From NCBI RefSeq assembly GCF_000334915.1, contig NZ_AMSF01000060.1:1-45701 (forward strand): a stretch of DNA of 45,701 bases, written 5' to 3'. The position numbers and the translations under genes were made by a program. The notes under the pieces were generated by a model. That model saw nothing but the letters and a program-made list of their open reading frames with translations. It did no database searches and was not told the origin of the DNA. This DNA comes from Dyella ginsengisoli LA-4 (GTDB taxonomy: Bacteria > Pseudomonadota > Gammaproteobacteria > Xanthomonadales > Rhodanobacteraceae). Below are positions 10,283-29,873 of this stretch, piece after piece (positions within the stretch are counted from its first letter, which is position 1; each line of letters begins with the position of its first letter).

Positions 10283-11422
10283 CTAGCGGGTCAGACCAGG
10301 CCGGTCGGGTGCCAGCATCGCCGCGGTGAGCCCCGCATCCTGCAGGTGCGCCGGCAGCGGACGGCCCAGTGCCAGGTTCGCGCAGGCCTCGCCCATCGCC
10401 GCCGAGGTCTGGATGCCGTAGCCGCCCTGCGCGGCGACCCAGAAGAACCCGGGCGCATCCGCCGCGAAGCCGCCGACCAGGTCGCCGTCGGCGACGAAGG
10501 AACGCAGTCCGGCCCAGGTCCGCGTCGGGCGGCGGATCGTCATCGTGGTGGCCTCCTCGATGTGATGGATGCCCAGCGCGATGTCGAACTCCTCCGGCTG
10601 CACGTCGTGCGGATGGGTCGGGTCGGCATTCGCCGCCGAACCCAGCAGCTGACCGGCATCGGGCTTGAAGTAGAAGGTCTCGTCGAGGTCACAGACGAAC
10701 GGCCAGCCAGCGGCGGCCAGCCCGGTCGGTGGCTCGAACACGAACGCCGAGCGCCGCTTGGGCATCAGTCCCAGCGTCGTCACGCCGGCCATCGCGGCCA
10801 CCTGATCGGCCCAGGCGCCGGCGGCATCCAGCAGCAATGGCGCATGGAAGCGTCGATCACCCACGCTCACCGCCCAGCCGCTGCCATCGCGCTCGATCGC
10901 CGTGATCGCCTGGTCCACGTGCAGCACCCCGCCACGCGCCTTCATACCGCGCAGGAAGCCCTGGTGCAGTTCGTTGACGTCGATGTCGGCGGCGCCCGGT
11001 TCGTGCAGGCCGATCGCCGCCGCTTCCGCGCGCAGCACCGGCACGTCGTCGCGGACGCGCGAGCCGTCGTGCAGCTCCAGATCGGGCGTGTCGCGGCGCA
11101 TGGTCTCGAACATCGCGCGCACCTGCTCCACCTGGTCTGCGCGGCCGATCACCGTGGCACCGCGCGAGGTGAGGATCGGCTGCGCAGCGAAACCCTCCGG
11201 CGGACCGGCCAGGAACGGCCGGGTGGCGCGGGTCAGCGCGCGCACCTGCTCCGTGCCGTAGGTCTCGCAGAACAGCGCCGCCGAGCGACCGGTGGAATGC
11301 ATGCCGGCATACGGCTCACGTTCGAGCACGATCACCCGCGCATGCGGCGCGAGGAAATACGCCACCGACGCGCCGGCCATGCCGGCGCCGATCACGATGG
11401 CATCGGCCTGCTCGACGCTCAT
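10283..11422 (-). CDS. DauA-like FAD-dependent D-amino-acid dehydrogenase
   Basis: A 379-residue flavoenzyme of the DAO fold. The dinucleotide-binding loop is IVIGAGMAGASVAYFL near the N-terminus. It matches Pseudomonas D-arginine dehydrogenase closely in HSTGRSAA, the PKRRSAF strand with the substrate-carboxylate arginine, the DETFYFKPDAG tyrosine, TWAGLRSFVADGD and GYGIQTSAAMGEA. By alignment from memory, His48 of the active-site lid is Leu here and Glu87, which holds the cationic side chain of D-Arg, is Ala, while Tyr53 is kept. The substrate is therefore more likely a neutral D-amino acid than D-Arg. It has no signal peptide and overlaps the upstream symporter gene by ATGA. It is last in its operon. 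Confidence 0.85.
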   Translation of the reverse strand: MSVEQADAIVIGAGMAGASVAYFLAPHARVIVLEREPYAGMHSTGRSAALFCETYGTEQVRALTRATRPFLAGPPEGFAAQPILTSRGATVIGRADQVEQVRAMFETMRRDTPDLELHDGSRVRDDVPVLRAEAAAIGLHEPGAADIDVNELHQGFLRGMKARGGVLHVDQAITAIERDGSGWAVSVGDRRFHAPLLLDAAGAWADQVAAMAGVTTLGLMPKRRSAFVFEPPTGLAAAGWPFVCDLDETFYFKPDAGQLLGSAANADPTHPHDVQPEEFDIALGIHHIEEATTMTIRRPTRTWAGLRSFVADGDLVGGFAADAPGFFWVAAQGGYGIQTSAAMGEACANLALGRPLPAHLQDAGLTAAMLAPDRPGLTR

Positions 11423-12657
11423 GCATCTTCTCCGGCGGACTGGCGGGCGACCACGCTGGTCGCGGTGAGATCGCAGGTGACGTTGCCCAGCGTGGCCAGC
11501 GTGTCCGGCAAGGTGTCCACCGCCAGCATCAGGCCCAGTGGCCCGACCGGCACGCCCATCGCCTGCGCCACCGGCAGGTTGGTGGCGATGAAGGTGACCT
11601 GCCCCGGCAGACCGACCGAACCCAGGCTGATCACCACCGCCAGCGCGGCACCGGCGCACAGCGCGGCGGGCGACAGGTCGATGCCGTAGGCCCAGGCGAT
11701 GAACGACGCCGACACCACGTACTGCACCGGACTGGTCAGCCGGCACAGCGACACCGCCATCGGCAGCACCAGCGCGGTGACGCGTTCGGGGTAACCCAGC
11801 CGGCCGTTGGCGCTTTCCAGCATTGCCGGCAGCGAGGCCAGCGACGACTGCGTGCTCAGCGCCACCGCCTGCGCCGGCACGAGCGCGGCGGCAAAGCGGC
11901 GCAGCTTCTCGCCGCCCCAGGTCACTGCCACCGCAAGCATCGCCAGCGTCACCGCGACGTACAGCAGGCATTCGACCAGCACGTAGATGCCCAGCGCGCC
12001 GAGCATGCTGGCGCCGGCGCGGGCGCACACCGCCAGGATCAGCGCGAACACGCCCAGCGGCGCCACCCACAGCACCCAGCGCACGATCACGATCATCGCG
12101 TCGGCGATCGACTGGAAGAATTCCACCAGCATCGCGCGCCGCTCCGGCTGGATCTGGGTGAGCGCGAAACCGAAGAACAGCGCGAACACCACCAGCGGCA
12201 GCATCGCGCTCTGTGCCGCGGCGGCGATCGCGTTGGTCGGCACGATCGAGGTGACCGCCTCCACCCAGCCGGTCGGCGCGGTGCGCGCGGACAGCGGAAC
12301 CGTGGCGTGGCTCAGCGCTTCGCTCAGCGCCGGGTTGTGCGGGAACAGCCGGAACAGCCACGGCGCCAGCAGCGCTGCAAGAAAGGCACCGCCGGTGAGC
12401 AGTACCAGGAACACCACGATCGCCCGCCGCGCCACGCGGCCGGAGGCCGCCGCATCGCTGGCGGTATTCACGCCCACCACCACCAGCGACAGCACCAGCG
12501 GCACCACGGTCATCTGCAGCGCCGCCAGCCACAGCTTGCCGGCCGGCTGCACCACCGATGCCACGGTCTGCGCCATCGACGGATCGAGCGCCGCCAGCGC
12601 CAGGCCGATCGCGGCACCCAGCGCCAGGCCCAGCAACACGCGTGCGGTAGGACTCAT
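11419..12657 (-). CDS. Dicarboxylate/amino acid:cation symporter (SLC1/DAACS family)
   Basis: A 412-residue inner-membrane transporter of the GltP/DctA fold. The first re-entrant hairpin carries the serine-rich ALSTQSSLASLPAMLE motif, and the substrate-binding TM8 carries DTLPDTLATLGNVTCDL, the family pattern with Asp and Asn that bind sodium and the amino group. The seventh helix MAVSLCRLTSPVQ departs from the usual NMDGT motif, so ion coupling may differ. Typical substrates are glutamate, aspartate, neutral amino acids or C4-dicarboxylates. It is coupled by ATGA overlaps to the L,D-transpeptidase gene upstream and the D-amino-acid dehydrogenase downstream, which suggests an amino acid substrate, possibly D-Ala or D-Glu. 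Confidence 0.85.
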   Translation of the reverse strand: MSPTARVLLGLALGAAIGLALAALDPSMAQTVASVVQPAGKLWLAALQMTVVPLVLSLVVVGVNTASDAAASGRVARRAIVVFLVLLTGGAFLAALLAPWLFRLFPHNPALSEALSHATVPLSARTAPTGWVEAVTSIVPTNAIAAAAQSAMLPLVVFALFFGFALTQIQPERRAMLVEFFQSIADAMIVIVRWVLWVAPLGVFALILAVCARAGASMLGALGIYVLVECLLYVAVTLAMLAVAVTWGGEKLRRFAAALVPAQAVALSTQSSLASLPAMLESANGRLGYPERVTALVLPMAVSLCRLTSPVQYVVSASFIAWAYGIDLSPAALCAGAALAVVISLGSVGLPGQVTFIATNLPVAQAMGVPVGPLGLMLAVDTLPDTLATLGNVTCDLTATSVVARQSAGEDA

Positions 12658-13430
12658 CGACCGCCCTCCAGCACCGGCAACTGCCAGTCGTCGCGCACGG
12701 CGGCATAAGCCTTGCGCGGCAACAGCACGAACACCGGATGATCCTCGGGCTTGAGCCAGCCGAGCAGGTTGCGCATCGACTCCGGCGTCATCGCGGTGCA
12801 GCCGGCGGTGCCGGTGGTCGGCGAGGCCCACAGGTGGCCGAAGATGCAGCTGCCGGCGCCGGGCTTCGCGTCCGGGTTGCTGTCGATGACGAAGCCCATG
12901 CGGTAGCGCTGGTCGCCGTGCACGTGGATGTCCCGGCGCATCGGCTCGGACGAGCCTTTCACCGCGGCGGCGCCGACCTGCTTCGCGTCGACGATGCGGT
13001 TGTAGTAGGGCGACTCGACCACGTCCATGCACCAGTCGGTGGCGCTGAGCGCGCGGTATGGCATCGCCGTGGCGATCTGCGGCGCATAGCCGAACGTGGT
13101 GCCGATGCGGAACACGCCGGCCGGGCTGCGGTTGTCGCCTTCGCGCTTGACCGGGCCGTCCTCGCTTGGCGGCTGCAGGCCGAGGCCCCAGGCTGCGCCG
13201 GCCTTGCCGATCACCACCGGCCACGGGGCGCCGACCGCGATCCAGCGGTCGTCCTCGCGCACGAAGCGGCGCAGCGTGCCCTGATCGGTGTTCCAGCCGT
13301 CGATGGTCACCAGCACCAGCTGCCGCGCGCCCTGCCACGGGAGCGCGGCCGGCGCGGCGAAGGCCTGGGCGGAAAGCGTGAGCGCGGCGAGCACGGCGGC
13401 GCGCCGCAGGAATGTGAGCGTGGAGGTCAT
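12654..13430 (-). CDS. Exported L,D-transpeptidase-family (YkuD) protein
   Basis: A 258-residue periplasmic protein with signal peptide (basic n-region, hydrophobic LRRAAVLAALTLSAQAFA, cleavage after AFA). The catalytic domain contains FGHLW with His199 and the T-G-T-A-G-C-T-A-M segment with nucleophile Cys211, resembling the COG3786-type YkuD proteins rather than ErfK/YbiS. Such enzymes form or cut L,D bonds at the diaminopimelate of murein stems, releasing D-Ala. Here it lies between an RpiR regulator and an amino acid symporter, so a carboxypeptidase-like role in scavenging is plausible but not shown. Its stop overlaps the symporter start. Confidence 0.82.
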   Translation of the reverse strand: MTSTLTFLRRAAVLAALTLSAQAFAAPAALPWQGARQLVLVTIDGWNTDQGTLRRFVREDDRWIAVGAPWPVVIGKAGAAWGLGLQPPSEDGPVKREGDNRSPAGVFRIGTTFGYAPQIATAMPYRALSATDWCMDVVESPYYNRIVDAKQVGAAAVKGSSEPMRRDIHVHGDQRYRMGFVIDSNPDAKPGAGSCIFGHLWASPTTGTAGCTAMTPESMRNLLGWLKPEDHPVFVLLPRKAYAAVRDDWQLPVLEGGR

Positions 13431-13454: not shown

Positions 13455-14309
13455 TTACGGTTCGAGGATGTGCTGGATGCGTTCCAGGTTGCCCAGCAGC
13501 TGCGTGCGGCGGTCGTCGTGGCCCTCGCACAGGCGCACGAAGATGCCATCGAGCAGGTGCTGCATCGCCGACTGGTAGAGCAGCGGCTGGATGTAAGGCT
13601 GCTCGTCGTGCGCGGACACCACCAGCGCGAGGTCGGCCAGCGTGCGCAGCGGGTTGGCGGTGTGCCGGGTCAGCGTGACCAGCTGGCCGCGCCGCTCGCG
13701 GAACTGCCGGGCAATCTTGCCCAGCGCGGCGTGCTGGCCGAACTCGGAGATCACCACCAGCACGTCGCCGGCCTGCGCTGCCGCCACGTTGGAGGTCATC
13801 CGCACCATGTCGAAGCTGTGCACGCTGAGGATGCCCAGCGTGGCCAGGCGCAGCGCGAAGGCGCGCACCAGCACGTCGTCGTCGCCCATGCCGAGCAGGA
13901 ACACGCGGCCGCTGCGGCCGGCGCGGTCGATCGCTTCGACCACCGCCTGGATCGTCTCCGGCGCATTGATCACCCGGGTCTCCTCCTCCGCCGCGCACTT
14001 GCGTCGCCACAGCCGGTCGGCCAGCCCCGAACTGGCGGCCTCCTGGGTCGGCGACACCGTGGCGGTCTCGCCCGGTGCGGCGCGGGCGATCGCCTCGCCG
14101 ATCGAGTACTTGAGGTCGGGGTACCCCTTGAAACCCAGCTTCTGGGTGAACTTCACCACGCTGGACTGGCTGATCCCCAGCGCATTGGCCAGCTGCTGCG
14201 AGGAGTAGTCGCGCAGCAGCTGCGCGTTCTCGACGATGAAGTCGGCGATGCGGCGCTCCACCGCCGACATCTGGTCGCGCTCGGAACGGATCTTCACCAG
14301 TGGTGACAT
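13455..14309 (-). CDS. RpiR-family transcriptional regulator
   Basis: A 284-residue regulator with an N-terminal RpiR-type helix-turn-helix (residues 5-75: MSAVERRIADFIVEN, YSSQQLANALGISQSSVVKFTQKLGFKGYPDLK) and a C-terminal SIS domain (from about residue 115) that normally binds a phosphosugar or amino sugar. The SIS domain keeps the LGMGDDD and VVISEFGQ segments in place of the usual G-x-G-x-S and ISxSG loops. RpiR proteins such as E. coli MurR respond to MurNAc-6-phosphate, so a murein-derived effector would suit this locus. It is encoded within the operon it probably controls. A candidate operator is at 18082-18096. Confidence 0.88.
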   Translation of the reverse strand: MSPLVKIRSERDQMSAVERRIADFIVENAQLLRDYSSQQLANALGISQSSVVKFTQKLGFKGYPDLKYSIGEAIARAAPGETATVSPTQEAASSGLADRLWRRKCAAEEETRVINAPETIQAVVEAIDRAGRSGRVFLLGMGDDDVLVRAFALRLATLGILSVHSFDMVRMTSNVAAAQAGDVLVVISEFGQHAALGKIARQFRERRGQLVTLTRHTANPLRTLADLALVVSAHDEQPYIQPLLYQSAMQHLLDGIFVRLCEGHDDRRTQLLGNLERIQHILEP

Positions 14310-14325
14310 GCTCGCGCTCACGCTC

Positions 14326-15423
14326 TCACTCCGACACCGGCTCCAGGCCACGGATCTCGCGGATGCCCAGCCCCGGGGCATCGGTCACGGAAATCTCCGA
14401 TTCGTTGAAGAGTACCCCGCCGTCGACCGGATTGAACGCGCACAGCGAAGGGCCGTCGAGGTCCACCTTGGTGATCACGTCGGCCTTGGCCACCGCCACG
14501 TGCACGGCGGCGGCGACGCTGATCGAGGTTTCCAGCATGCAGCCGATCATGCAGTCCACGCCGTGCATCGCCGCGATGTCGGCGATCTTCACCGCGTTGG
14601 AGATGCCACCGGTCTTCATCAGCTTGATGTTGATGATGTCCGCCGCGCGCAGGCGGATCAGCTCGATCACCTCCATCGGCCCGAACACGCTCTCGTCGGC
14701 CATCACCGGGGTGTGTACCCGCTCGGTGACGTAGCGCATGCCGGCCAGGTCGCGCGCCTTCACCGGCTGCTCGACCAGCTCCAGCTTGATGCCGGCATCC
14801 TCCAGCGTCTGCAGCGCGTACACCGCCTGCTTGGCGGTCCAGCCCTGGTTGGCGTCCAGCCTGAGCAGCGCGCGGCCCTCGACGGCGGCGTAGATCGCCT
14901 TGACCCGCTCGATGTCGACGCCGATGTCCTTGCCGACCTTGATCTTCAGCGACTCGAAACCGCGTTCCACCGCGGCGATCGAATCGGCCACCATCTTGTC
15001 GATGTAGTCCACGCTGATGGTGATGTCGGTGGTGATCACCGGATCGCCGCCGCCCAGCAGCTGGTACAGCGGCGCGTTGTAGAGCTGGCCCCACAGATCG
15101 TACAGGGCGATCTCCACCGCCGCCTTGGCCGAGGAGTTCTTCTCCATCGAGCCCTGGATCAATCCGGTGAGCCGGTTGAGGTCGGCCACCTCCTGGCCGA
15201 TCAGCCGCGGCGAGATGTAGTGGCGGATCGCGTCGACGATCGAGCCGTGGGTGTCGCCGGTGATCACTGCCGTGGCCGGTGCCTCGCCATAGCCGACATG
15301 GCCGGTGTCGGTGCGCATCATCACCACGATGTCCTCGACCTGGCTCACCGTGCGCAGCGCCGTCTTGAACGGCGTTTTCAGCGGCACCCGCAGCATGCCG
15401 AACTGGATGTCTGTGATCTTCAT
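14326..15423 (-). CDS. Dipeptide epimerase (L-Ala-D/L-Glu epimerase type)
   Basis: A 365-residue enolase-superfamily enzyme (MLE subgroup) without signal peptide, so cytoplasmic. Catalytic residues are in place: K160-I-K162, metal ligands D190, E218 and D243, and the second base K267 in NIKLMKTGG. The C-terminal barrel holds VDLDGPSL, that is the D321-L-D323 motif that binds the substrate amino group in known L-Ala-D/L-Glu epimerases and separates them from muconate enzymes. The reaction would turn L-Ala-D-Glu, a murein stem fragment, into L-Ala-L-Glu. Its upstream neighbour is an NlpC/P60 peptidase, the same pairing as ykfB-ykfC of Bacillus subtilis. Confidence 0.9.
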   Translation of the reverse strand: MKITDIQFGMLRVPLKTPFKTALRTVSQVEDIVVMMRTDTGHVGYGEAPATAVITGDTHGSIVDAIRHYISPRLIGQEVADLNRLTGLIQGSMEKNSSAKAAVEIALYDLWGQLYNAPLYQLLGGGDPVITTDITISVDYIDKMVADSIAAVERGFESLKIKVGKDIGVDIERVKAIYAAVEGRALLRLDANQGWTAKQAVYALQTLEDAGIKLELVEQPVKARDLAGMRYVTERVHTPVMADESVFGPMEVIELIRLRAADIINIKLMKTGGISNAVKIADIAAMHGVDCMIGCMLETSISVAAAVHVAVAKADVITKVDLDGPSLCAFNPVDGGVLFNESEISVTDAPGLGIREIRGLEPVSE

Positions 15424-15461: not shown

Positions 15462-16868
15462 TCAGTGCCGGATGTGCACGATGCTGGTCATGTGGTCGAT
15501 GAAGGTGGAGCCGTCCTTGCCGTACAGCATCGGCAGCAGCGGCGTCACCGACACCGCGTTGAGCTTGACGTGGCGGGTGCCGCCGTCGGGCAGCCGGTAG
15601 CTCATGCCCAGCACGTCGTGGATCACCCACGGCTGGCCCTGCCACTGGCCGATCACCAGCATCACGTGGCCGGGGATGTAGACCAGGTCGCCGACTTTCA
15701 GCGCCATGGCCGCCTCGAGCCGTGCGGCGTGGCTGTCCCTGTCGGTGAAGGTGCGATGGTCCAGCGCCGGACTGATCGCCTGCCGGCTGGTGTTGCGCGG
15801 CATCTGCACGCCCATCGAGCGGTAGACGTCGGAGACGAAGCCGGAGCAGTCGCGGCCGTCGTAGGCATGACCCCAGCCATAGCGCTCGCCGAGGAACTTG
15901 AACGCCTGGCGGATGATGTTCGCCTCGGTCAGCGGCAGGTAGTCGGCGCGGGTGTCGGTGGTGATCGGCAGCAGTGCCGGCACGAAGGCCAGCGAGCCGT
16001 CGTCGCGGCGGATCGGCAGTTCCAGCACGTGCGAGGTGTACGGGGTCTGGCCGTTGACCGGCTGGTCCGGCGCCAATCCGCTGGCCAGCGGCACGCGGTC
16101 GCCCATGTCCAGCTGCAGCTGCGACACCGCCGGCTGCTCGCGGGTGTAGACGGTGTGCACGGTGCCGCCGGTGACCACGCGGCCGGACCGCCGGTCGGCG
16201 TAGCCGAACACCTGATCGGCGCTGCCGATGGCGATGTTGTCGCGGTGGGTCCAGGCGGCATAGCGCGGGCTGACCACGAACAGCCAGCGGCCGTCGCGGC
16301 TGGTGTGCGCCACCACCACCGGCGTGCCCGGAAACTCGGCGGTCTCCTGGAAGCGGTCGATGTCGGTATTGCCCGGATGGCTGAATACGCGCAGGTCGGT
16401 CGGGAAGCTGCGCAGCGCGGCGCGCTTCACCACCAGGCCGTAGCGCGTCGGCGCGCTGGCCGGCACCGCGTCGCGATCGGCGTTGGCGACGATCGCCCGC
16501 AACGTGGCGGCCGCCACCGGCTTGCCGTCGACGTCGTACAGCGGGCGGGTCGGCGGCGTGGAGACGCTGTCCAGCCAGGCATCGACGCGGGCGCGGTCCA
16601 GCGTGGCCGGCAGCGCGCGCAGGTCGTGCATCGACGGGTCGTCGGCCAGCAGCTTCGCGTTCTGCGCGGCGATCTGCGCCGGCGTCAGCAGCACCGCATC
16701 CGGGTGTGGGCGCAGGCCGATCCAGAAATCGGGTGTGAGCTGCGCCGCTTCCACACCGAGCACGCCCGACGGCGGCACCGGCAGGGGTCGGTCGACCGTC
16801 GCCCGGCCGAAGGCGGGCCCGGCCAGCAGCAGGCCGAGGAGCAGGGCGCGAAGGGAGGAGATAGGCAT
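15462..16868 (-). CDS. Exported NlpC/P60 peptidase with SH3b domains (YkfC-like)
   Basis: A 468-residue protein with a signal peptide (SLRALLLGLLLAGPAFG) and a region of SH3b type (about residues 130-270; TRYGLVVKRAALRSFPTD). The C-terminal NlpC/P60 domain has nucleophile Cys341 in RDCSGFV, His401 in PGHVMLVIG and His417 in VIHDV as the catalytic set. The architecture matches gamma-D-glutamyl-L-diamino-acid endopeptidases of the YkfC kind, which cut L-Ala-gamma-D-Glu from diaminopimelate in free stem peptides. The epimerase for the product follows 38 bases later. Because this enzyme is exported but the epimerase is not, a transporter must link them; the DUF819 gene just upstream is the candidate. 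Confidence 0.9.
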   Translation of the reverse strand: MPISSLRALLLGLLLAGPAFGRATVDRPLPVPPSGVLGVEAAQLTPDFWIGLRPHPDAVLLTPAQIAAQNAKLLADDPSMHDLRALPATLDRARVDAWLDSVSTPPTRPLYDVDGKPVAAATLRAIVANADRDAVPASAPTRYGLVVKRAALRSFPTDLRVFSHPGNTDIDRFQETAEFPGTPVVVAHTSRDGRWLFVVSPRYAAWTHRDNIAIGSADQVFGYADRRSGRVVTGGTVHTVYTREQPAVSQLQLDMGDRVPLASGLAPDQPVNGQTPYTSHVLELPIRRDDGSLAFVPALLPITTDTRADYLPLTEANIIRQAFKFLGERYGWGHAYDGRDCSGFVSDVYRSMGVQMPRNTSRQAISPALDHRTFTDRDSHAARLEAAMALKVGDLVYIPGHVMLVIGQWQGQPWVIHDVLGMSYRLPDGGTRHVKLNAVSVTPLLPMLYGKDGSTFIDHMTSIVHIRH

Positions 16869-16891: not shown

Positions 16892-18043
16892 TCACGGCAG
16901 CGCCAGCGACGCCATCAGCGACGCCATCAGCAGACCGAAGCCGGTACCCAGGATGTAGCCCAGCAAGGCCAGCAGGATGCCCACCGGCACCAGCGCGCGC
17001 GAGTAGCTGGCCGCCAGTACCGGCGCGGCGGCGACGCCACCGATGTGCGCCAGCGAGGCGATGCCGCACAGGTACAGGTCGAAATGGAACAACCGCGCCA
17101 GCACCATCAGCACCAGCGCGTGCAGCACGATCACCGTGACGCCGCACAGCAGGTAAAGCGGTGCTTCGCCCAGGCCGTGGAAGTTGCTCTGCGAAGCCAG
17201 CACCGCCACCACGAAGATCAGCATCGCGCCGGAGATGCTGCCGGCGCCCGGAAACCGCGCCAGCGGCGTGTGCGCCACGACCAGGCCGGCGCCGGTGGCG
17301 AGCAGGATCGTCCAGGTGGTGGCGCTGACCATCGCCGACGCCGGCAGCATCCCGCCGAGCAGGCGCGCCAGCGCGGTCACCAGCAGCGCCACGCCCAGCC
17401 ACAGCAGCACGTTCTCCGGCGTGGTCGGGCCGGTGGCGGCGACCTCGGCCACTTGCAGGTCGCCGCTGGAACGGGCGCGGGTCCAGCGATTGAACGCCGG
17501 CGCCAGCCGCGCCACCGAGAACAGCACCACCACCCACATCGAGTAGCAGATCGCATCGGTCAGCAGCGACATCGCCAGGTGCGGGTCGGACATGCCGATC
17601 GCCTGCTTTACACCGATCATGTTGGCGGTCCCGCCGACCCAGCTGCCCGACAGCGCGGCCAGCGGATGCCAGTCGTCGCCGCGCAACCAGTGGCGATAGA
17701 TCATGAACGTGGCCAGGAAGGCCACGAACAGGCTGAGCGTGGTGCAGGCGAACACCGCCAGCACGCGCGGCCCGAGCCGGAAGATCGCGCGCAGGTCGCA
17801 GTTGATCATCAGCAGGAACAGCAGCGCCGGCACCAGATGGCCGACCAGCAGCGACTGCGCCGCCTTGATCGGCGCATTCACCTGCCACACCCCGGCGATC
17901 GCCAGCGTGGTGACCAGCAGATAGACCATCACGATCGGCGGCAGCACCTGGAAGATGCGCCAGCCGAAGCGGCGCTCCAGCGCCGGAAACATCCCCGCCA
18001 CCACCAGCATCAGGCCGACGAACGGCCACACCGTCTGGATCAC
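16892..18043 (-). CDS. DUF819-family membrane transporter
   Basis: A 383-residue integral membrane protein with about ten to eleven hydrophobic helices and the DUF819 (YjcL-like) hallmarks, for example LSGSWVGGTANMIGVKQAIG and a C-terminal HIGGVAAAPVLAASY. Members are uncharacterised but look like secondary transporters. The start is GTG 18043 after GGGGGCG. It is the first gene of the seven-gene minus-strand operon and lies 23 bases before the NlpC/P60 gene. This position, between an exported endopeptidase and a cytoplasmic epimerase, suggests it moves the dipeptide or another murein fragment; that is inference. Confidence 0.85.
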   Translation of the reverse strand: MIQTVWPFVGLMLVVAGMFPALERRFGWRIFQVLPPIVMVYLLVTTLAIAGVWQVNAPIKAAQSLLVGHLVPALLFLLMINCDLRAIFRLGPRVLAVFACTTLSLFVAFLATFMIYRHWLRGDDWHPLAALSGSWVGGTANMIGVKQAIGMSDPHLAMSLLTDAICYSMWVVVLFSVARLAPAFNRWTRARSSGDLQVAEVAATGPTTPENVLLWLGVALLVTALARLLGGMLPASAMVSATTWTILLATGAGLVVAHTPLARFPGAGSISGAMLIFVVAVLASQSNFHGLGEAPLYLLCGVTVIVLHALVLMVLARLFHFDLYLCGIASLAHIGGVAAAPVLAASYSRALVPVGILLALLGYILGTGFGLLMASLMASLALP

Positions 18044-18081
18044 TCGCGCCCCCGTCCGGCACCTGGTCCGCGTGCCGTTTT

Positions 18082-18096
18082 GGAATATGTCATTCC
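18082..18096. promoter_or_regulatory. Candidate RpiR operator in the divergent promoter region
   Basis: GGAAT-ATGTC-ATTCC is a perfect inverted repeat with 5-bp arms and a 5-bp spacer, in an AT-rich patch unlike the GC-rich surroundings. It lies 38 bases before the DUF819 start and about 90 before the transglutaminase gene, so one bound dimer could act on both operons. RpiR-family operators are often short palindromes of this kind. I did not find a second copy by eye at other promoters of the region. Confidence 0.45.
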
Positions 18097-18123
18097 TACA
18101 GAATTCAAAAGCAGCATAAATTA

Positions 18124-18152
18124 TTGACGCTGTTTTGCAAGCGTGCTACACA
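18124..18152 (+). promoter_or_regulatory. Candidate promoter for the plus-strand scavenging operon
   Basis: TTGACG (18124-18129) and TACACA (18147-18152) are spaced by 17 bases. The -35 is a good match and the -10 a weak one. The start site would fall near 18159, about 28 bases before the ATG at 18187. Confidence 0.4.
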
Positions 18153-18186
18153 ACGGTTTCGCAAGTTCATGTCGGGGGAAGCACGC

Positions 18187-22846: not shown

Positions 22847-24157
22847 ATGGACGCCCGCTTGCTGACGCACGACACGCACCGTTCCTCCACTCCCGACATC
22901 ACCTCCCGGGCCGGATCCGTCCCCCTGTTCGACGGTGTCGACATGGTCGCCCTGGCCTCCCGCGTCGGCACGCCGACTTACGCCTATTCGGCCAACGCGA
23001 TCCGTGCACGGATCGACGAGCTGCTGTCCGCGCTCACCGGCACGGATGCGCAGGTCTGCTACGCCGCGAAAGCCAACAGCAACGTGGCGATCCTGCAGCT
23101 GATGGCCGAACGCGGACTGGGCGCGGACATCGTGTCCGCCGGTGAACTGTGGCGCTGCCTGCAGGCAGGCATCCGGCCAGAGCGCATCGTGTTCTCCGGC
23201 GTCGGCAAGACGGCCGGCGAGATCGCCGAGGCGCTGGAGGCAGGCATCGGCCGCTTCAACCTGGAGTCGCGCGACGAGCTGGAGACGCTGCAGGCGGTCG
23301 CCGCATCGATGAACACCGTCGCCCGCGCCGCGGTACGCATCAACCCCGACGTGGATGCCCGCACCCACGCCAAGATTTCCACCGGACGCGCCGAAAACAA
23401 GTTCGGTGTGGGCTTGGACGAGGCGCGCGACTGGTTCGACCAGGCCGCGGGCTTCCCGAACGTGCGGCTGGACGGCCTGCACGCCCACATCGGTTCGCAG
23501 CTGCTGGAACTGGCCCCGATCCGCCAGGCGCTGCAGCGGGTCGCCGCCTTCTGGCACGAGCTGCGCGACAGCGGGCATGCGATCACCAGCATCGACGTCG
23601 GCGGCGGGCTCGGCGTGCGCTACCGCGAAGGGGAACGACCGATCGCCGCAGTCGACTACGTGGCGGCGATCCGCGAGGCGCTGGCCGGTTTCGACGGGCG
23701 GCTGATGCTGGAGCCGGGGCGCTGGCTGGTGGCCGAGGCCGGCGTGCTGCTGACCCGCGTGATCCGCATCAAGCCGGGCGCGAATCATCCGTTCCTGGTG
23801 CTGGATGCGGCGATGAACGACCTGCTGCGCCCCAGCCTGTACGAGGCCTGGCACGACATCGAGCCGGTAGGCGCGGAACCGCGCCCGCCCGCGACCTACG
23901 ACGTGGTCGGCCCGGTGTGCGAAACCGGCGACACCTTCGCCCGCGCCCGCACGTTGCCGCGCTGCACCGCCGGCGACCTGCTGATGATCCGCACCGCCGG
24001 CGCCTACGGCGCATCCATGGCCTCCACCTACAACTCGCGCCCGCTGGCCGCCGAAGTGCTGCTGGACTCCGGACGCTACGCCGAGGTCCGGCGCCGCCAG
24101 AGCTGGCGCGAGATGACCGCCGGCGAGCAAGCTGCGCGACACTGGCTTACGACCTGA
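22847..24157 (+). CDS. lysA: Diaminopimelate decarboxylase
   Basis: A 436-residue PLP enzyme of fold type III converting meso-diaminopimelate to L-lysine. Lys75 in CYAAKANSN is the Schiff-base lysine; GADIVSAGEL, the HAHIGSQ strand, GGGLGVRY, CETGD with the catalytic Cys and AGAYGASMASTYNSRP are all family hallmarks. The start ATG 22847 was chosen because the GTG at 22808 lies inside the terminator hairpin. Xanthomonads also carry a LysA fused to aspartate kinase, so this free-standing copy may serve catabolism of diaminopimelate released from murein. It lies 19 bases before the M19 dipeptidase. Substrate could alternatively be another D-centred amino acid. Confidence 0.88.
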   Translation: MDARLLTHDTHRSSTPDITSRAGSVPLFDGVDMVALASRVGTPTYAYSANAIRARIDELLSALTGTDAQVCYAAKANSNVAILQLMAERGLGADIVSAGELWRCLQAGIRPERIVFSGVGKTAGEIAEALEAGIGRFNLESRDELETLQAVAASMNTVARAAVRINPDVDARTHAKISTGRAENKFGVGLDEARDWFDQAAGFPNVRLDGLHAHIGSQLLELAPIRQALQRVAAFWHELRDSGHAITSIDVGGGLGVRYREGERPIAAVDYVAAIREALAGFDGRLMLEPGRWLVAEAGVLLTRVIRIKPGANHPFLVLDAAMNDLLRPSLYEAWHDIEPVGAEPRPPATYDVVGPVCETGDTFARARTLPRCTAGDLLMIRTAGAYGASMASTYNSRPLAAEVLLDSGRYAEVRRRQSWREMTAGEQAARHWLTT

Positions 24158-24176: not shown

Positions 24177-25391
24177 ATGCTCCGACGCCTGGCCTGCCTC
24201 ACCGCCCTCGCCTTCGCCGGCAACGTGCTGGCCGGCGCCGCGCCGGCCCAGGACGATCCGCCGATCACCCTGGACACCCACGTCGATATCCCGTTCACCT
24301 ACATGCACGAGGATCGCTTCGACGTCGGCAGGGACACGCCGCTGCGGGTCGACCTGGGCAAGATGGAGCGCGGCGGCCTGAACGCGGCGTTCTTCATCGT
24401 CTGGGTGCCGCAGCATCGGCTCGATGCCGCCGGTTACGCCGAGGCGATGCGCCAGGCCGAGCAGAAGTACGACGCCATCGGCGACATGCTGATGAAGTAC
24501 CCCGACCGCATCCGCCTGGCCACCACGCCGGCGCAGGTGATGGCCAACCACAAGGCCGGACTGCTGTCGGCGATGATCGGGATCGAGAACGCCTACTCGC
24601 TCGGCCACGACCTGCACCGGCTCGATGCCGCCTACGACCGCGGCGCGCGCTACGTCGGCCTGGTGCACGTGGGCGACAACGACCTTTGCACCAGCTCGCT
24701 GCCCGATACCGAACACGGCGAGAGCGCGATGAACGGCCCCGGCGACCACGGCATGACCGACTTCGGCCGCGCGGTGGTCAAGCGCGCCAACCGGCTCGGC
24801 ATCATGGTCGACATCTCGCACGCGTCGGACCGCTGCGTGCGCGACGTGCTCGCCGTCTCCACCGCGCCGCTCATCGCCTCGCACTCCGGCGCCCGCGCCG
24901 TGCTCGACCACCCGCGCAATCTCCCCGACGACCTGCTGCGCGCCATCGCGGCGAAAGGCGGAGTGGTCCAGGCAGTGGCGTACAAGGAATTCCTGAAGAA
25001 AGACCCCGGCCGCGAGGCGGCGGAGAAGAAACTTCAGGCGCAGGTCGCCCGCGCAGCCGGCGACAAGGAATACGACTCGGACAAGCACGACTACCTGCCG
25101 GCCATGGCCGAAGGCATGGCCGAGATCGAGAAGACCTACCCGCTGCCCACGGTGGACGACTACGTGAAGCAGATCCGCCACATGGTGGAGGTCGCCGGCA
25201 TCGACCATGTCGGCATCGCCTCGGACTTCGACGGCGGCGGCGGTATCACCGGCTGGGCCGACGCCAGCCAGACCCGCAACCTCACCGCCGCGCTGCGGCG
25301 CGCCGGCTTCAGCGAGCAGGACATCGCCAAGATCTGGGGCGGCAATCTGCTGCGGGTGTGGGGCGAGGTGGAACGTGATGCGGAGCGGTGA
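24177..25391 (+). CDS. Exported membrane dipeptidase (peptidase family M19)
   Basis: A 404-residue zinc dipeptidase of the renal dipeptidase family, which hydrolyses L,L- and L,D-dipeptides and accepts D residues at the C-terminal position. A signal peptide (LACLTALAFAGNVLAGAA) sends it to the periplasm. Metal ligands are visible as His35-x-Asp37 in DTHVDIP, Glu in GIENAYS, His in VDISHAS and in ASHSGAR, and the late Asp in GIASDFDG. It begins 19 bases after lysA. A role in cutting L-Ala-D-Glu-like or D-Ala-containing dipeptides is inferred from the context. Its last codons overlap the next gene. Confidence 0.92.
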   Translation: MLRRLACLTALAFAGNVLAGAAPAQDDPPITLDTHVDIPFTYMHEDRFDVGRDTPLRVDLGKMERGGLNAAFFIVWVPQHRLDAAGYAEAMRQAEQKYDAIGDMLMKYPDRIRLATTPAQVMANHKAGLLSAMIGIENAYSLGHDLHRLDAAYDRGARYVGLVHVGDNDLCTSSLPDTEHGESAMNGPGDHGMTDFGRAVVKRANRLGIMVDISHASDRCVRDVLAVSTAPLIASHSGARAVLDHPRNLPDDLLRAIAAKGGVVQAVAYKEFLKKDPGREAAEKKLQAQVARAAGDKEYDSDKHDYLPAMAEGMAEIEKTYPLPTVDDYVKQIRHMVEVAGIDHVGIASDFDGGGGITGWADASQTRNLTAALRRAGFSEQDIAKIWGGNLLRVWGEVERDAER

Positions 25392-27066
25392 GGTGAAGCT
25401 CCATCAAGAGCGCCCCCTCACCGCAACCCTCTCCCCCCTCGGGGCGGGGGGAGAGGGAGTCAGAGCGCGCTCCGCCTGTGCTCCCTCTCCCCCTGCAATG
25501 CAGGGGGAGAGGGCCGGGGTGAGGGGGCGCTTTTGCCTTGCCCTGCTCCTCACTCTGGCCACATCCACCGCGACAGCCTCTTCTCGCCAGGAAACCTACG
25601 ACCACATCCTCGACAGCGTGGTCGCCCGCTACCACCTCCCCGGCATCGCCGTCGGCGTGATCGACCACGGCAAGGTCGTCTACACCGCCACCCGCGGCGA
25701 GACGGTCGCCGGATCCGGCCAGAAGATCGACGCCCGCACGCTGTTCAAGATCGCCTCCAACAGCAAGGCGATGACCACCGCCCTGCTCGGCCGCCTGGTC
25801 GACCAGGGCAAGCTGCACTGGGACGACCCGGTGACGAAGTACCTGCCCGACTTCGCCATGCACGATCCGTGGGTGACGAAGAACATGCGCGTGGCCGATC
25901 TGCTCACCCACTCCAGCGGCCTGCCCGAAGGCGGCGGCGACCTGATGCTGTGGCCGGAGCCGAACGCCTACACGCGGCAGGACATCATCCACGGCCTGCG
26001 CTACATCGCGCCGGGCTACAGCTTTCGCTCCAAATACCAGTACGACAACCTGCTCTACGTGGTGGCCGGCGAAGTCGCCGCCGCGGCGGGCGGTGCGCCG
26101 TACGAGACGCTGATGCATCGCGAGGTGTTCCAGCCGCTCGGCCTCGGCCGCTGCCAGGTCGGCACGTGGAACCGCGACGCGGTGGGCGACGTGGCGCAGC
26201 CGCATCGCCAGGTCGACGGCCGCAACGAGCCGATCCGCGAGGATGGCGCGACGATCCCGGCGATCACCTCGGCACCGGCCGGCGGTATCCGCTGCGATCT
26301 CACCGACATGCTCACCTGGGCCAGGAGCTGGTTGGCGCCGACGCCGGCGCAGCTGGCCTGGCTGTCAGAAGAGCAGCGCCGCGTGCTGCAGTCGCCGCAC
26401 ATGCTGATCCCGGTGTCGAAGCAGCGCCGCGTGTGGGACCACAGCCACGTGATGGCCTACGGCTACGGCTGGCGCATGGCCGACGTCGACGGCCACTGGA
26501 CCGTGTGGCACACCGGCACGCTGTCGGGCATGTACTCGGAGCTGATGCTGCTGCCGGACCAGCGCAGCGGCTTCGTGTTCCTGATCAACGGCGAGGCCGA
26601 GGACGCGCGCACCGTGCTGGGCGAACTGCTGCTCAAGCACTTCACCGCGCCGCACGACACGCGCGATGCCGCCTGGTACGCCGCTGCGCTGGACCGCGCC
26701 AACCAGGCCGACAGTCACCGCACCCCGGCGCCGGACACCTCGCACGCCGTGCCGGTGGTACCCGCGGACGCGACGGCATGGACCGGCCGTTACCGCGATC
26801 CCTGGCTGGGCGAGATGACGCTGTGCACTGCCGGCGATCGCGTGCGCTTCGCGGTGGAGAAGTCGCCCAAGCTCGCCGGCGAGATGCGTCGCCTCGACGG
26901 TCGCCTGCTGGTGCACTGGGACGACGCCACCGTCTACCCCGACGCCTGGCTCGACGTGCATCCCGGCACGCCGGTGACCCTGACGATGGCCAAGGTCGAC
27001 GCGCTCGCCGATTTCAGCTCCGACTACGAGGACCTGCACTTCACGCGCAGCGGAGACTGCCCGTGA
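25378..27066 (+). CDS. Exported serine hydrolase, class C beta-lactamase / D,D-peptidase fold
   Basis: A 562-residue protein from ATG 25378, which overlaps the dipeptidase stop by 14 bases and has GAGGTG seven bases upstream. Residues 9-51 come from a palindromic repeat; the true signal sequence (FCLALLLTLATSTATA) starts only at about residue 52. ATG 25498, at the tip of a repeat hairpin, is the alternative start and would give a normal signal peptide but has no ribosome binding site. The catalytic domain has Ser127-x-x-Lys130 (ASNSK), Tyr222-x-Asn224 and HTG (VWHTGTLSG). The last 100 residues look like a DUF3471-type beta domain. Known relatives are D,D-carboxypeptidases, D-aminopeptidases and esterases. 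Confidence 0.82.
   Translation: MRSGEVKLHQERPLTATLSPLGAGGEGVRARSACAPSPPAMQGERAGVRGRFCLALLLTLATSTATASSRQETYDHILDSVVARYHLPGIAVGVIDHGKVVYTATRGETVAGSGQKIDARTLFKIASNSKAMTTALLGRLVDQGKLHWDDPVTKYLPDFAMHDPWVTKNMRVADLLTHSSGLPEGGGDLMLWPEPNAYTRQDIIHGLRYIAPGYSFRSKYQYDNLLYVVAGEVAAAAGGAPYETLMHREVFQPLGLGRCQVGTWNRDAVGDVAQPHRQVDGRNEPIREDGATIPAITSAPAGGIRCDLTDMLTWARSWLAPTPAQLAWLSEEQRRVLQSPHMLIPVSKQRRVWDHSHVMAYGYGWRMADVDGHWTVWHTGTLSGMYSELMLLPDQRSGFVFLINGEAEDARTVLGELLLKHFTAPHDTRDAAWYAAALDRANQADSHRTPAPDTSHAVPVVPADATAWTGRYRDPWLGEMTLCTAGDRVRFAVEKSPKLAGEMRRLDGRLLVHWDDATVYPDAWLDVHPGTPVTLTMAKVDALADFSSDYEDLHFTRSGDCP
25406..25534. repeat. Compound palindromic repeat (REP/MITE-like)
   Basis: About 129 bases with nested inverted repeats. 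The 17-base outer arms (25406-25422 and 25518-25534) match with one mismatch. Inside are two hairpins: 25427-25438 with 25446-25457 (12 bp), and 25483-25497 with 25499-25513 (15 bp, one-base loop). CCCTCTCCC/GGGAGAGGG arms of this sort are a known dispersed intergenic repeat type in gammaproteobacteria. Here the element lies inside, or at the start of, a coding sequence and its length is a multiple of three. Confidence 0.8.
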
Positions 27067-27782
27067 ACCTTCGACATGCCCGCGTGATCGCGTGGGTTCT
27101 GCTGGCGATTGCCATCCCAGCCCCCGCCGACCAGCCCGTCACGCGCTCACCCGCCAGAACCGCTGCCGAAGCGCACCTGGTCGACGTCCGCAGCCTGGTG
27201 CCGGACATCCATGAGGACATCAAGTACGCCGGTCACGACAACTTCGTCGGCCGCCCGGTGGACGGTTACCTCGCGCCGAAATGCCTGCTGCTGAGACCCG
27301 TAGCCGAAGCGCTGGCGCGCGTCGAACACGACCTGCGCCGCGAGCACGCGCGTCTGCGTCTGTGGGACTGCTATCGCCCGGCCCGCGCGGTCGCCGACTT
27401 CGTGCGCTGGGCGCACGACCTGTCCGACCAGAAGACCAAGGCCGCGCACTATCCCAACCTGGACAAGTCGCAGCTGCTCGGCGACTACATCGCCCCGGTC
27501 TCCGGCCACAGCCGCGGCGCCACCACCGACCTGACCCTGGAGCAGTGCGACGCGCACGATCGCCATTGCAAACCGCTGGACATGGGTACCGGCTTCGACT
27601 GGTTCGGCCTGCGCGCCAACACCGACAACCAGCAAGTGACCGCCGCACAGCGCGCCAACCGCCAGCGCCTGCTGCACGCCATGGCGCGCGAAGGCTTCAA
27701 GAACTACCCGATGGAGTGGTGGCACTACACCTTCCAGCCCGAGCCCACGCCGCACACGATGTACGACGTGCCGATCCGGTGA
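27063..27782 (+). CDS. ddpX: D-Ala-D-Ala dipeptidase (VanX/DdpX family, M15)
   Basis: A 239-residue zinc dipeptidase with a signal peptide (ARVIAWVLLAIAIPAPA), so periplasmic. The metal site S-G-H-S-R-G-(A)-T-T-D and the catalytic/metal EWWHYTF motif are intact, and the LRLWDCYRP arginine that binds substrate carboxylate is present. The start is GTG 27063, overlapping the previous stop as GTGA. DdpX in E. coli releases D-alanine from D-Ala-D-Ala for use as a nutrient; vancomycin resistance is not implied here because vanH and vanA are absent. It fits a scavenging pathway with the D-amino-acid dehydrogenase. Confidence 0.9.
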   Translation: MNLRHARVIAWVLLAIAIPAPADQPVTRSPARTAAEAHLVDVRSLVPDIHEDIKYAGHDNFVGRPVDGYLAPKCLLLRPVAEALARVEHDLRREHARLRLWDCYRPARAVADFVRWAHDLSDQKTKAAHYPNLDKSQLLGDYIAPVSGHSRGATTDLTLEQCDAHDRHCKPLDMGTGFDWFGLRANTDNQQVTAAQRANRQRLLHAMAREGFKNYPMEWWHYTFQPEPTPHTMYDVPIR

Positions 27783-27807
27783 TGGATGCTGTTCACAAAG
27801 GCGCCGG

Positions 27808-27827: not shown

Positions 27828-27865
27828 GACGAGCGGGAGGCTTGCCGATCACCCCGATCCCCGTC

Positions 27866-27909
27866 ATGCCAGCGGCTCCGAACAGCCGAATGGCTGGTCA
27901 AGCTGGCAT
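27866..27909. repeat. Palindromic intergenic repeat, unit 2
   Basis: ATGCCAGC (27866-27873) and GCTGGCAT (27902-27909) are perfect 8-bp inverted arms about 28 bases apart, preceded by CCGTC and followed by CCAGCG. With unit 1 it makes a two-part repeat cluster in opposite orientations, similar to BIME arrangements. No coding frame is credible in this gap. Confidence 0.5.
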
Positions 27910-27951
27910 CCAGCGCCTTCCGCAGCGCCACGCACATGAGGTGAAACAAGC

Positions 27952-29004
27952 ATGCGCCTCGCACTGATCCTGCTCGCCGCCCTCGCCCTCATCGCGCCCT
28001 GCCGCGCCGACGAGCTGCCGGCCTCCGTCGCAAAGCTCATGCAGCCCTACACCGGCGACGTCCCCGGCGCCTCGCTGCTGATCCTCAAGGACGGCAAGCC
28101 GGTGATCCGCCGCGGCTTCGGCTACGCCGATCTCGAGCACCACGTGCCCGCCACGCCGACCACCGACTACCGGCTCGCCTCGGTAAGCAAGCAGTTCACC
28201 GCCGCGGCGATCCTGCTGCTGGCCGAGGACCACAGGCTGTCGCTGGACGACTCCGTCCGCCACTGGCTGCCGACGCTGCCGCCGTTCGCCGACCGCATCA
28301 CCCTGCGCCAGCTGCTCGACCACACCGGCGGCCTGCTCGATTACGAGGACCTGATCCCGGCCACGCAGACCGAACAGGTCAGCGACGCCGAGGTGCTGCG
28401 GCTGATCGCACGCACCGACCACGGCTACTTCCCGCCCGGCTCGGCCTACCGCTACAGCAACACCGGCTACGTGCTGCTCGGCCTGGTGATCGAGAAGGCG
28501 TCGGGCATGACCCTGCCGGCGTTCCTGAAAGCGCGCATCTTCGCGCCGCTGCACATGGACCACACCCTGCTCTACGAACACCAACGCGGCCCGGCCGTGC
28601 CGAACCGCGCCTACGGCTACAGCCTGGTCGACGGCCACTGGCAGCGCACCGACCAGAGCGTCACCTCGGCCACCCGCGGCGACGGCGGCATCTACGCGTC
28701 GATCGACGACCTCGCCAGGTGGGATGCCGCGCTGTACGACGACCGCCTGCTCAGCGCCGCTTCGCGCCAGCTCGCTTTCAGCCCGCACGTGAAGGTCACC
28801 GGCGAGCCGTACGAAGCGCAGTACGGTTTCGGCTGGCGCATCACCGGCGACACGCTGTGGCACTCCGGCGAGAGCATGGGCTTCCGCAACGTGATCGTGC
28901 GATGGCCGAAGCGGCACCTCACCGTGATCCTGCTGAGCAACCGCAACGACCCCGAGCCCTACCAGACCGTGCTGAAGATCGCCCGGCCCTGGCTGGTCGA
29001 CTGA
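27952..29004 (+). CDS. Exported serine hydrolase, class C beta-lactamase fold (second copy)
   Basis: A 350-residue protein with a signal peptide (LALILLAALALIAPCRA). Catalytic motifs are Ser77-x-x-Lys80 (LASVSKQFT), YSN (YRYSNTGYVLLG) and HSG (LWHSGESMG). It is shorter than the gene at 25378, lacks its C-terminal beta domain and is not closely similar, so it is a separate subfamily rather than a recent duplication. It may be a D,D-carboxypeptidase or a D-amino-acid peptidase. It stands after a repeat cluster, 169 bases from ddpX, and could have its own promoter. Confidence 0.82.
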   Translation: MRLALILLAALALIAPCRADELPASVAKLMQPYTGDVPGASLLILKDGKPVIRRGFGYADLEHHVPATPTTDYRLASVSKQFTAAAILLLAEDHRLSLDDSVRHWLPTLPPFADRITLRQLLDHTGGLLDYEDLIPATQTEQVSDAEVLRLIARTDHGYFPPGSAYRYSNTGYVLLGLVIEKASGMTLPAFLKARIFAPLHMDHTLLYEHQRGPAVPNRAYGYSLVDGHWQRTDQSVTSATRGDGGIYASIDDLARWDAALYDDRLLSAASRQLAFSPHVKVTGEPYEAQYGFGWRITGDTLWHSGESMGFRNVIVRWPKRHLTVILLSNRNDPEPYQTVLKIARPWLVD

Positions 29005-29051
29005 CGCTGCGCTTCACGCACCTGATGCACACCCGAAGGAACGCTGCACCG

Positions 29052-29873
29052 ATGTCCCGTCCGTCCCCGCCCCGCACGATCCGCCACCTCGGCCTGCTGG
29101 CCGCCATCGCCCTGCTCGCCGCCTGCGCGCACGCACCGCCGCGCAATCCGCTGGCGACCTGGGTGCCCTCGCCCAACCACGACATCCGCCGGCCGGTGCT
29201 GATCGTGGTGCACTTCACCGACGAGGACTCGGCGCAGCAGGCGCTGGAGACCCTGCGCACGCGCAACAGCGGCGGCCCGGTCAGCGCGCACTACCTGATC
29301 GGCAGGGACGGTCGCATCTACCAGCTGGTCAGCGACCAGCTGCGCGCCTGGCATGCCGGCGGCGGCCGCTGGGGCACCATCACCGACCTCAACTCCGCAT
29401 CCATCGGCATCGAGCTGGACAACAACGGCCACGAGCCCTTCAGCCAGCCGCTGATCGACAGCCTGCTGCGCCTGCTCGGCGACCTCACCACGCGCTTGCA
29501 CATCCCGCCCACGCAGATCATCGGCCACGAAGACCTGGCGCCCACGCGCAAGGACGACCCGGGCCCATACTTCCCGTGGAGCACGCTGGCCCAGGCCGGC
29601 TTCGGCCTGTGGCCGAAGGGGCCGCTGTGCGACCCGCCCGCCGGCTTCGACCCGTGGATGGCGCTGGCCGTGGTCGGCTACCCGCTGGATGACCGCCCGG
29701 GCGCGGTGCGCTCGTTCCACCACCACTTCCGCGCAATGCAGGGCGAGACGCTGGACGCGGAGGATGCGCGGATCCTCTACAACCTCGCGCAGCAGATCGA
29801 CGGCGGCGGCAATGCCTGTGCCGCACCGGCGCTGCCGATCAGCACCGACGCCGCGACCGGACCCGCGCGCTGA
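29052..29873 (+). CDS. AmpD/AmiD-like N-acetylmuramoyl-L-alanine amidase lipoprotein
   Basis: A 273-residue protein with a lipoprotein signal (LAAC, Cys25), so membrane-anchored at the periplasmic face, probably of the outer membrane as AmiD is. The amidase-2 zinc domain shows IVVHFT (first His), GPVSAHYLI, IGIELDNNG with the catalytic Glu and GHEDLAPTRKDDPGPYFPW with the last His and Asp ligands. It would cut the MurNAc-L-Ala bond and release stem peptides. The C-terminal 70 residues (FDPWMALAVVGYPLDDRPGA) look like a peptidoglycan-binding helical module. The start ATG 29052 follows GAAGGA. It ends the plus-strand cluster, eight bases from the recD stop. Confidence 0.9.
   Translation: MSRPSPPRTIRHLGLLAAIALLAACAHAPPRNPLATWVPSPNHDIRRPVLIVVHFTDEDSAQQALETLRTRNSGGPVSAHYLIGRDGRIYQLVSDQLRAWHAGGGRWGTITDLNSASIGIELDNNGHEPFSQPLIDSLLRLLGDLTTRLHIPPTQIIGHEDLAPTRKDDPGPYFPWSTLAQAGFGLWPKGPLCDPPAGFDPWMALAVVGYPLDDRPGAVRSFHHHFRAMQGETLDAEDARILYNLAQQIDGGGNACAAPALPISTDAATGPAR

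Follow-up and report, generated by a model that had tools for sequence, protein, structure and literature searches.

Several described systems break down or reuse peptidoglycan peptides. In Bacillus ykfABCD, a YkfB-like epimerase gene adjoins one for an SH3-NlpC/P60 endopeptidase. PMC2954226 places ykfB beside ykfC in a number of bacteria, Acidobacterium and Bacteroides among them, gives BcYkfC a signal peptide, and describes the Escherichia coli MpaA-YcjG-PepD route, in which an epimerase converts L-Ala-D-Glu to L-Ala-L-Glu. Tannerella forsythia, a Gram-negative bacterium, uses environmental muropeptides through AmpG/GppX, with an AmpG permease and a hybrid two-component regulator (PMC5388701, in excerpt). 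Polysaccharide utilisation loci (SusC/SusD) bring together a TonB-dependent receptor, secreted hydrolases, a transporter and a regulator. Here we describe a gene set of about 20 kb from Dyella ginsengisoli LA-4 that resembles each of these in part. The window, that is, the whole stretch analysed, is contig C60 (NZ_AMSF01000060.1, bases 1-45701; 45,701 nucleotides) of a 4.55 Mb genome in 99 contigs with 70% guanine plus cytosine (GC). The set, at 10283-29873, consists of seven genes running leftward from 18043 and eight running rightward from 18169, and we consider it, with a probability of about three in four, to be a divergon for the catabolism of peptidoglycan stem peptides. Its genes are as follows, with localisation judged by inspection (DAP, diaminopimelate).

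10283-11422, minus strand: DauA-like D-amino-acid dehydrogenase (DAO), matching DauA (3nyc) over its full length (residues 5-374, 427.7 bits, E 4.6e-127)
11419-12657, minus strand: SDF-family (GltP-like) symporter, Na+:dicarboxylate type (PF00375, E 1.6e-75; GltP model 146 bits, under the cut-off of 638)
12654-13430, minus strand: YkuD-fold enzyme, secreted (PF03734, E 1.8e-5)
13455-14309, minus strand: RpiR-family regulator with an altered SIS domain (PF01418, PF01380)
14326-15423, minus strand: L-Ala-D/L-Glu dipeptide epimerase, YkfB-like, cytoplasmic (B. subtilis 1jpm/1tkk, E 7.9e-102; under the NCBIfam cut-offs of NF041118 and PRK15129)
15462-16868, minus strand: NlpC/P60 endopeptidase with SH3 domain, gamma-D-Glu-DAP type, secreted (PF12913 (SH3_6), PF00877)
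16892-18043, minus strand: DUF819 inner-membrane transporter (PF05684, E 2.1e-76)
18169-19734, plus strand: transglutaminase-fold (TGase) cysteine hydrolase, secreted (PF01841, E 2.6e-16)
19784-22777, plus strand: Oar-like TonB-dependent receptor (PF25183, PF13620, PF07715)
22847-24157, plus strand: extra DAP decarboxylase, LysA (TIGR01048, 457 bits, over the cut-off)
24177-25391, plus strand: M19 dipeptidase, secreted (PF01244, E 1.6e-95)
about 25498-27066, plus strand: class C-fold serine hydrolase, AmpH-like, BlaC1 (PF00144, weak DUF3471; AmpH model 93 bits, under the cut-off of 266)
27084-27782, plus strand: M15 D-Ala-D-Ala dipeptidase, VanX type, secreted (PF01427; 1r44, 139 bits)
27952-29004, plus strand: class C-fold serine hydrolase, D-aminopeptidase-like, BlaC2 (PF00144; PRK13128 127 bits, under the cut-off of 443)
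29025-29873, plus strand: AmiD/AmpDh2-type amidase, lipoprotein (PF01510; AmpDh2 4bpa, 121 bits)

Open reading frame (ORF) lists, Pfam scans and GC by codon position support this layout; the start codons are choices from codon-position GC and spacing, not proven. All 14 genes named in a first-pass annotation of this DNA are present, in two divergent sets around 18.1 kb. That annotation counted 15 genes, and the one absent from its list is the TGase gene, the first of the rightward set. Nine products look secreted or outer-membrane from their first residues (NlpC/P60, YkuD, TGase, Oar, M19, both class C hydrolases, VanX and AmiD), and the epimerase, LysA, DauA and RpiR have no such look.

Compared with Bacillus ykf, the locus has an Asn for Asp256 of the endopeptidase, carries DUF819 and SDF transporters in place of the neighbouring dpp/oppA-type transport, and adds the receptor, TGase, YkuD, LysA, DauA, RpiR and a pair of operator-like dyads. 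Unlike the E. coli route, it uses an NlpC/P60 enzyme, its genes are clustered, and cleavage would be mostly periplasmic by inspection. The Tannerella system differs in its permease and regulator, and import of intact muropeptides by the window's set is putative. The first-pass annotation likened the locus to a polysaccharide utilisation locus; here the receptor is Oar-like and import by it is putative, and we found no SusD-type Pfam match at E <= 0.001 among the 15 locus proteins, and thus no SusC/SusD pair.

The gene arrangement is conserved. Searching 117 genomes of the family with the epimerase (E <= 0.001) gave matches in 88, namely the window's own, 53 others with at least 58% identity, and 34 that were only distant. 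Stretches of 20 kb were taken around all 53 loci, a few shortened by contig ends, and a gene was counted as present on any match of at least 40% identity. RpiR and TGase each occur in 48 of the 53, the same 48. These RpiR-type loci all carry the epimerase; NlpC and BlaC1 were found in 47 each, YkuD in 45, SDF in 44, DUF819 in 43, VanX in 42, Oar and BlaC2 in 41 each, M19 in 37, LysA in 36 and DAO in 35. VanX, BlaC2 and AmiD are undercounted because the 20-kb pieces cut off the right end. The two-sided order recurs in Dyella, Rhodanobacter, Frateuria, Fulvimonas, Luteibacter, Pinirhizobacter, Lysobacter, Luteimonas, Pseudoxanthomonas, Dokdonella and Tahibacter, as well as in Steroidobacter gossypii (L169; NCBI order Steroidobacterales), which argues that the arrangement is more than chance, and gene losses are frequent among the syntenic loci. 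The worry voiced in the first-pass annotation, that the genes might not be conserved together in any relative, is dispelled by this recurrence. The nearest named relative found was Dyella lutea (Lysobacterales, Rhodanobacteraceae), whose epimerase is 99% identical. The comparison also covered 80 loci from named organisms, the best of 418; in 35 pairs, the loci share an identical epimerase stretch and probably stem from the same genome.

The remaining five family loci (L085-L089) are of a smaller type. All five have the epimerase (58-78% identity), NlpC and YkuD; DUF819 and VanX occur in three each, M19 in two, and SDF and DAO in one each. RpiR, TGase, Oar and class C genes were not found in them, and no regulator adjoins them among the eight ORFs scanned there.

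The first-pass annotation cast the receptor as the importer; to call that role proven would be an overstatement, and we treat it as putative. In excerpt, PMC13046382 describes TonB-dependent uptake of N-acetylglucosamine in Caulobacter. The locus might instead face inward, salvaging the peptides of the cell's own turnover, with the receptor an accessory or serving another ligand, a possibility of some weight that we nevertheless do not favour. DUF819, Oar and M19 are jointly missing from five of the 48 loci (L039, L044, L049, L051 and L068), which keep most of the enzymes; receptor identity drops to 45-46% in L107, L111 and L120, as if the receptor had been exchanged; and the genome encodes AmpG and an LdcA-family protein (Peptidase_S66), which give the cell a turnover route. 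However, the receptor is kept in 41 of the 48 loci, an Oar-like gene also flanks a related locus in another family, and the extra LysA and DauA fit catabolism better than reuse. This LysA is a second copy; the other match over the cut-off (319 bits) ends a 903-residue frame elsewhere in the genome. In L107 and L111, the 45-46% receptor identity compares with 70-82% in most other Rhodanobacter loci, pointing to possible receptor exchange. A protein with a TonB C-terminal domain is encoded outside the locus, at 42727-44175 of the window.

We also looked for the locus in a sample of 398 genomes of the phylum, using TGase and NlpC profiles (E <= 1e-20). The TGase profile matched nine genomes and the NlpC profile 13. 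Eight genomes matched both and all belong to the same order, which we take to be Lysobacterales; G434, of another family, is a further one. NlpC without TGase was found in G242, G325, G432 and G462. Two of these outsiders join related peptide genes to genes of the N-acetylmuramic acid (MurNAc) type. In L225 (from G434), a receptor gene resembling Oar (24% identity, without a Plug match) and an RpiR gene (59% identity over the first 87 residues, no SIS match) accompany an epimerase (64%), NlpC (39%), VanX (46%), a class IV aminotransferase, NamZ, a kinase-SIS fusion and an SSF symporter. One ORF at L225:3056-5515 joins Amidase_2, PG_binding_1 and class C domains, and a single 708-residue ORF at L225:6573-8699 fuses TGase (48%) to YkuD (42%). 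A Na+/H+ antiporter-family protein is present where DUF819 might be expected. L226 (from G462) reads DUF819-NlpC-epimerase-YkuD, its DUF819 copy 40% identical to the window's, followed by SSF, a BadF-type kinase, a GKRP-type SIS protein, NamZ and RpiR. NamZ and the kinase- and etherase-like genes act on MurNAc by family, and therefore tie the peptide genes of both loci to peptidoglycan; the MurK- and MurQ-like labels are readings of Pfam domains. The arrangement thus recalls the NamZ-MurK-MurQ pathway with MurR, also in having an RpiR-family regulator, whereas the window's set holds no sugar gene. The other three loci, L227, L228 and L229, have NlpC with YkuD, joined by an epimerase (51%) in L228 and VanX in L229, and no sugar gene among the ORFs scanned. 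Two tandem alkaline phosphatase genes lie beside the NlpC homologue at L227:10571-13805.

The synteny in relatives and these two genomes support the earlier proposal of a conserved locus for murein stem-peptide breakdown. Conservation is real, co-regulation is probable, and comparison gives good support to the substrate class. Some other gamma-glutamyl or D-amino-acid peptide, such as poly-gamma-glutamate or a non-ribosomal peptide, seems very improbable as the real substrate. M19, D-aminopeptidase-like and DauA enzymes do have broad specificity, and the TGase-fold protein comes without an assigned substrate, but the YkfB-like epimerase with its R24, an amidase of the MurNAc-L-Ala family and the linkage to NamZ elsewhere all point to peptidoglycan.

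Key residues are largely kept. R24 of the epimerase occurs in 134 of 134 rows and its DxD motif lies within a conserved stretch; we take both to be substrate residues. The Cys-His-His of the YkfC subfamily is retained in NlpC/P60, C341 and H401 in 130 of 130 rows and H417 in 129. Tyr203, a candidate counterpart of SH3b Tyr118 of YkfC that lies beyond the reach of the alignments to YkfC, is invariant in alignment A2. In the TGase protein, C383 and D434 are present in 124 of 124 rows and H418 is invariant in 58; its AlphaFold2 model (mean confidence, pLDDT, 86.6) has a fold match in 3isr, a putative cysteine protease, and a sequence search returned no solved relative at E <= 0.1. VanX matches 1r44 at E 1.9e-39 over residues 38-232 and has the M15 domain (zinc ligands not checked individually). 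For the YkuD enzyme, a sequence search for solved relatives gave nothing meaningful. The best Foldseek match of its model (pLDDT 91.6) is Campylobacter Pgp2, a weak one (E 2.2e-3, TM-score 0.36; none at E <= 0.001). Pgp2 is an L,D-carboxypeptidase, and we propose the same activity here.

The divergent gap (18044-18168) contains three elements, the promoter being read from the gap sequence.

18082-18096, plus strand: operator-like dyad 1, GGAATATGTCATTCC, pattern GAAT-N5-ATTC
18113-18129, plus strand: operator-like dyad 2, AGCATAAATTATTGACG, overlapping the -35 box; relaxed pattern in 93 of 94 gaps
18124-18152, plus strand: sigma70-like promoter TTGACG-N17-TACACA for the rightward set

The sample comprised 88 divergent gaps, window included, after 35 duplicate loci were dropped, and 94 after six loci of the order's second family were added; the loci are related, so these counts are not independent. 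Dyad 1 (GAAT-N5-ATTC) is found in 66 of the 88 gaps (mononucleotide shuffles, mean 0.16, maximum 2) and the dyad 2 pattern, ATAAATTA, in 74 (shuffle mean 0.1). The start-to-start distance is 33 bp in all 62 loci that have both exact patterns, and the columns between the dyads are mostly of low information. The sigma70-like box pair TATTGAC-N18-TACACA is present in 85 of 94 gaps. In most gaps that lack the exact dyad 1, GGAATA-N2-TATTCC or a degenerate version of it can be made out by eye. The two dyads share GAATA/TATT-like halves in some of the loci, and therefore a single regulator could bind both; we infer this reader to be RpiR. The exact patterns are absent from the 250 bp upstream of all five RpiR-less loci (L085-L089). 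Two dyads at fixed spacing with a sigma70-like promoter between operons look new.

A wider RpiR regulon in the genome was considered and set aside: dyad 1 has one other exact match (GGAATANNTNATTC), inside a 517-residue ORF, and five more with one mismatch, positions not assigned. Outside the order, dyad-1-like sites occur in three of the five stretches, where shuffles give 0.02-0.06 per stretch: at L226:13609, in the gap that precedes the SSF-kinase-SIS-NamZ run; at L228:10765, upstream of NlpC; and at L225:19147, at the start of the SSF ORF. These positions suggest an old operator that may have been common to sugar and peptide modules.

The first-pass annotation had compared the regulator with MurR, and this analogy did not hold. 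The loop SxSGx[TS], which as SxSGxT we take to be the phosphosugar loop of MurR, a sensor of MurNAc 6-phosphate (MurNAc-6P), is found in none of 128 RpiR rows of the window's family, which mostly read SEHG at that place, whereas the RpiR of L226 retains a classical loop, SESGVT. The genome has no MurQ match over the cut-off. A MurNAc-6P signal is therefore unlikely, and the regulator probably senses an amino-acid or peptide ligand.

The epimerase is of particular interest because of how these bacteria appear to make D-Glu. No MurI match over the cut-off was found in the genome (24 bits against 146.65), and MurL is present (786 bits against a cut-off of 700; L236:821-2206, contig C63), lying between the 903-residue frame, which has a LysA-type domain at its end, an aspartokinase-like start by eye and its own stop as its one TGA, and a MurD-like ORF. 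As in the MurD2/MurL route (PMC8788868, in excerpt), which involves several of the same genera, Glu stereochemistry would be handled at the dipeptide level. By the same account, MurL uses ATP, acts on UDP-MurNAc-dipeptide and works in the L-to-D direction alone, whereas the epimerase of the locus would take the free dipeptide in the opposite direction. Since MurI is missing over the cut-off and MurL works only in that direction, the epimerase is the only D-Glu-to-L-Glu exit that we can name, a hypothesis confounded by ancestry and framed before any search for D-Glu oxidases or transaminases. In the phylum sample, all ten genomes of the order have MurL over the cut-off and no MurI match at E <= 1e-20, and eight of them carry TGase and NlpC. 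Outside the order, four of the five NlpC-positive genomes have MurI and all five lack MurL. The locus and MurL are thus not shown to be strictly linked, given these outsiders and the two MurL-positive genomes of the order that lack the NlpC and TGase matches.

Epimerase protein identity is high, with a median of 89% against 57-75% for its neighbours. Identity at four-fold sites (median 70% against 58-69%; the set of loci differs by gene) resembles that of the neighbours, and horizontal transfer is for this reason not favoured as the cause.

We infer the following route. Fragments of peptidoglycan would arrive in the periplasm by turnover of the cell's own wall, by way of the Oar-like receptor from outside, or both. 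Stem peptides would be released and trimmed by AmiD and the class C hydrolases, the YkuD enzyme would take off the fourth residue (D-Ala), and the TGase-fold protein may make one further cut, at a position we leave unassigned. NlpC/P60 would then split the gamma-D-Glu-DAP bond, giving L-Ala-D-Glu and DAP, while VanX and M19 would cleave dipeptides. The products would enter through the SDF symporter and DUF819, the latter a proposed importer of L-Ala-D-Glu or DAP, its substrate inferred. In the cytoplasm, the epimerase would convert L-Ala-D-Glu to L-Ala-L-Glu, LysA would turn DAP into lysine and DauA would oxidise D-alanine. RpiR would control both operons through the two dyads of the gap.

Several observations weigh against a catabolic divergon. 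The epimerase reaches 58% identity in no more than 53 of the other 116 genomes of the family, two of the ten sampled genomes of the order lack both NlpC and TGase matches, and the alignment rows include near-duplicate genomes. AmiD is variable: it was found in five of the 48 20-kb pieces and in six of 19 pieces extended rightward, and four of the 19 had recD without AmiD. Because Oar is missing from five loci, the receptor is not indispensable, and the dyad-1-like site of L228 has no RpiR match in its 20 kb, which allows for readers of the dyad other than RpiR. The gene set includes no dedicated cytoplasmic L-Ala-L-Glu peptidase. Placed by alignment to 3h41, Asn359 of NlpC/P60 occupies the position of YkfC Asp256 (Asn in 124 of 130 rows, Asp in six), a residue that the excerpts of PMC2954226 call essential for YkfC specificity, through recognition of the free N-terminus; with this Asp replaced, the enzyme may cut peptides that are still bound to sugar. 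The case as a whole is also a comparative one. The earlier description of a "complete" system was too strong, given this Asn, the frequent lack of AmiD and the absence of sugar genes from the window's set.

The same Asn is found in 3m1u, the closest solved structure to NlpC/P60, and this, together with the nine secreted or outer-membrane proteins, would fit a unit for envelope remodelling or cell-wall stress, in which the YkuD, class C, amidase and TGase enzymes would act on the sacculus of the living cell and leave the debris to the catabolic genes. We regard such a unit as improbable, as remodelling would have little use for an epimerase, LysA and DauA in the cytoplasm and the linkage to NamZ and kinase/etherase-like genes points to catabolism.

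Outside the divergon, a thymidine-phosphorylase-type gene (Glycos_transf_3) lies to the left at 8285-10039, and recD-, recB- and recC-like genes follow from 29881 on.

We found no description of this full gene set in the open-licence literature, among the matches listed. The parts are mostly known, and the locus is known chemistry in a new arrangement; the combination, the overlooked TGase-fold protein and the conserved switch between the operons look new. A broader picture, which we offer tentatively and think somewhat unlikely to hold in full, is that Lysobacterales and some neighbours use the locus outwardly. The Oar-type receptor would import muropeptides of lysed neighbours, and TGase and YkuD, fused in L225, would form a new two-step stem-peptide unit. 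The sugar genes would have been lost, and an RpiR that once read MurNAc-6P would since have adapted to a peptide or diamino-acid ligand. In such bacteria, with MurL and no MurI, only the dipeptide epimerase would lead back from D-Glu to L-Glu, and this would account for its being so much better conserved than the neighbouring genes.

The locus provides a likely context for DUF819 transporters, for a TGase-fold protein without an assigned substrate and for Oar-like receptors, and raises the question of how bacteria that build D-Glu only on the peptide, through MurD2/MurL, return it to L-Glu. Lysobacter is known for lysing other bacteria. If the proposed function is true, the locus would be a compact genetic example of peptidoglycan peptides serving as food, in a group that includes this genus.

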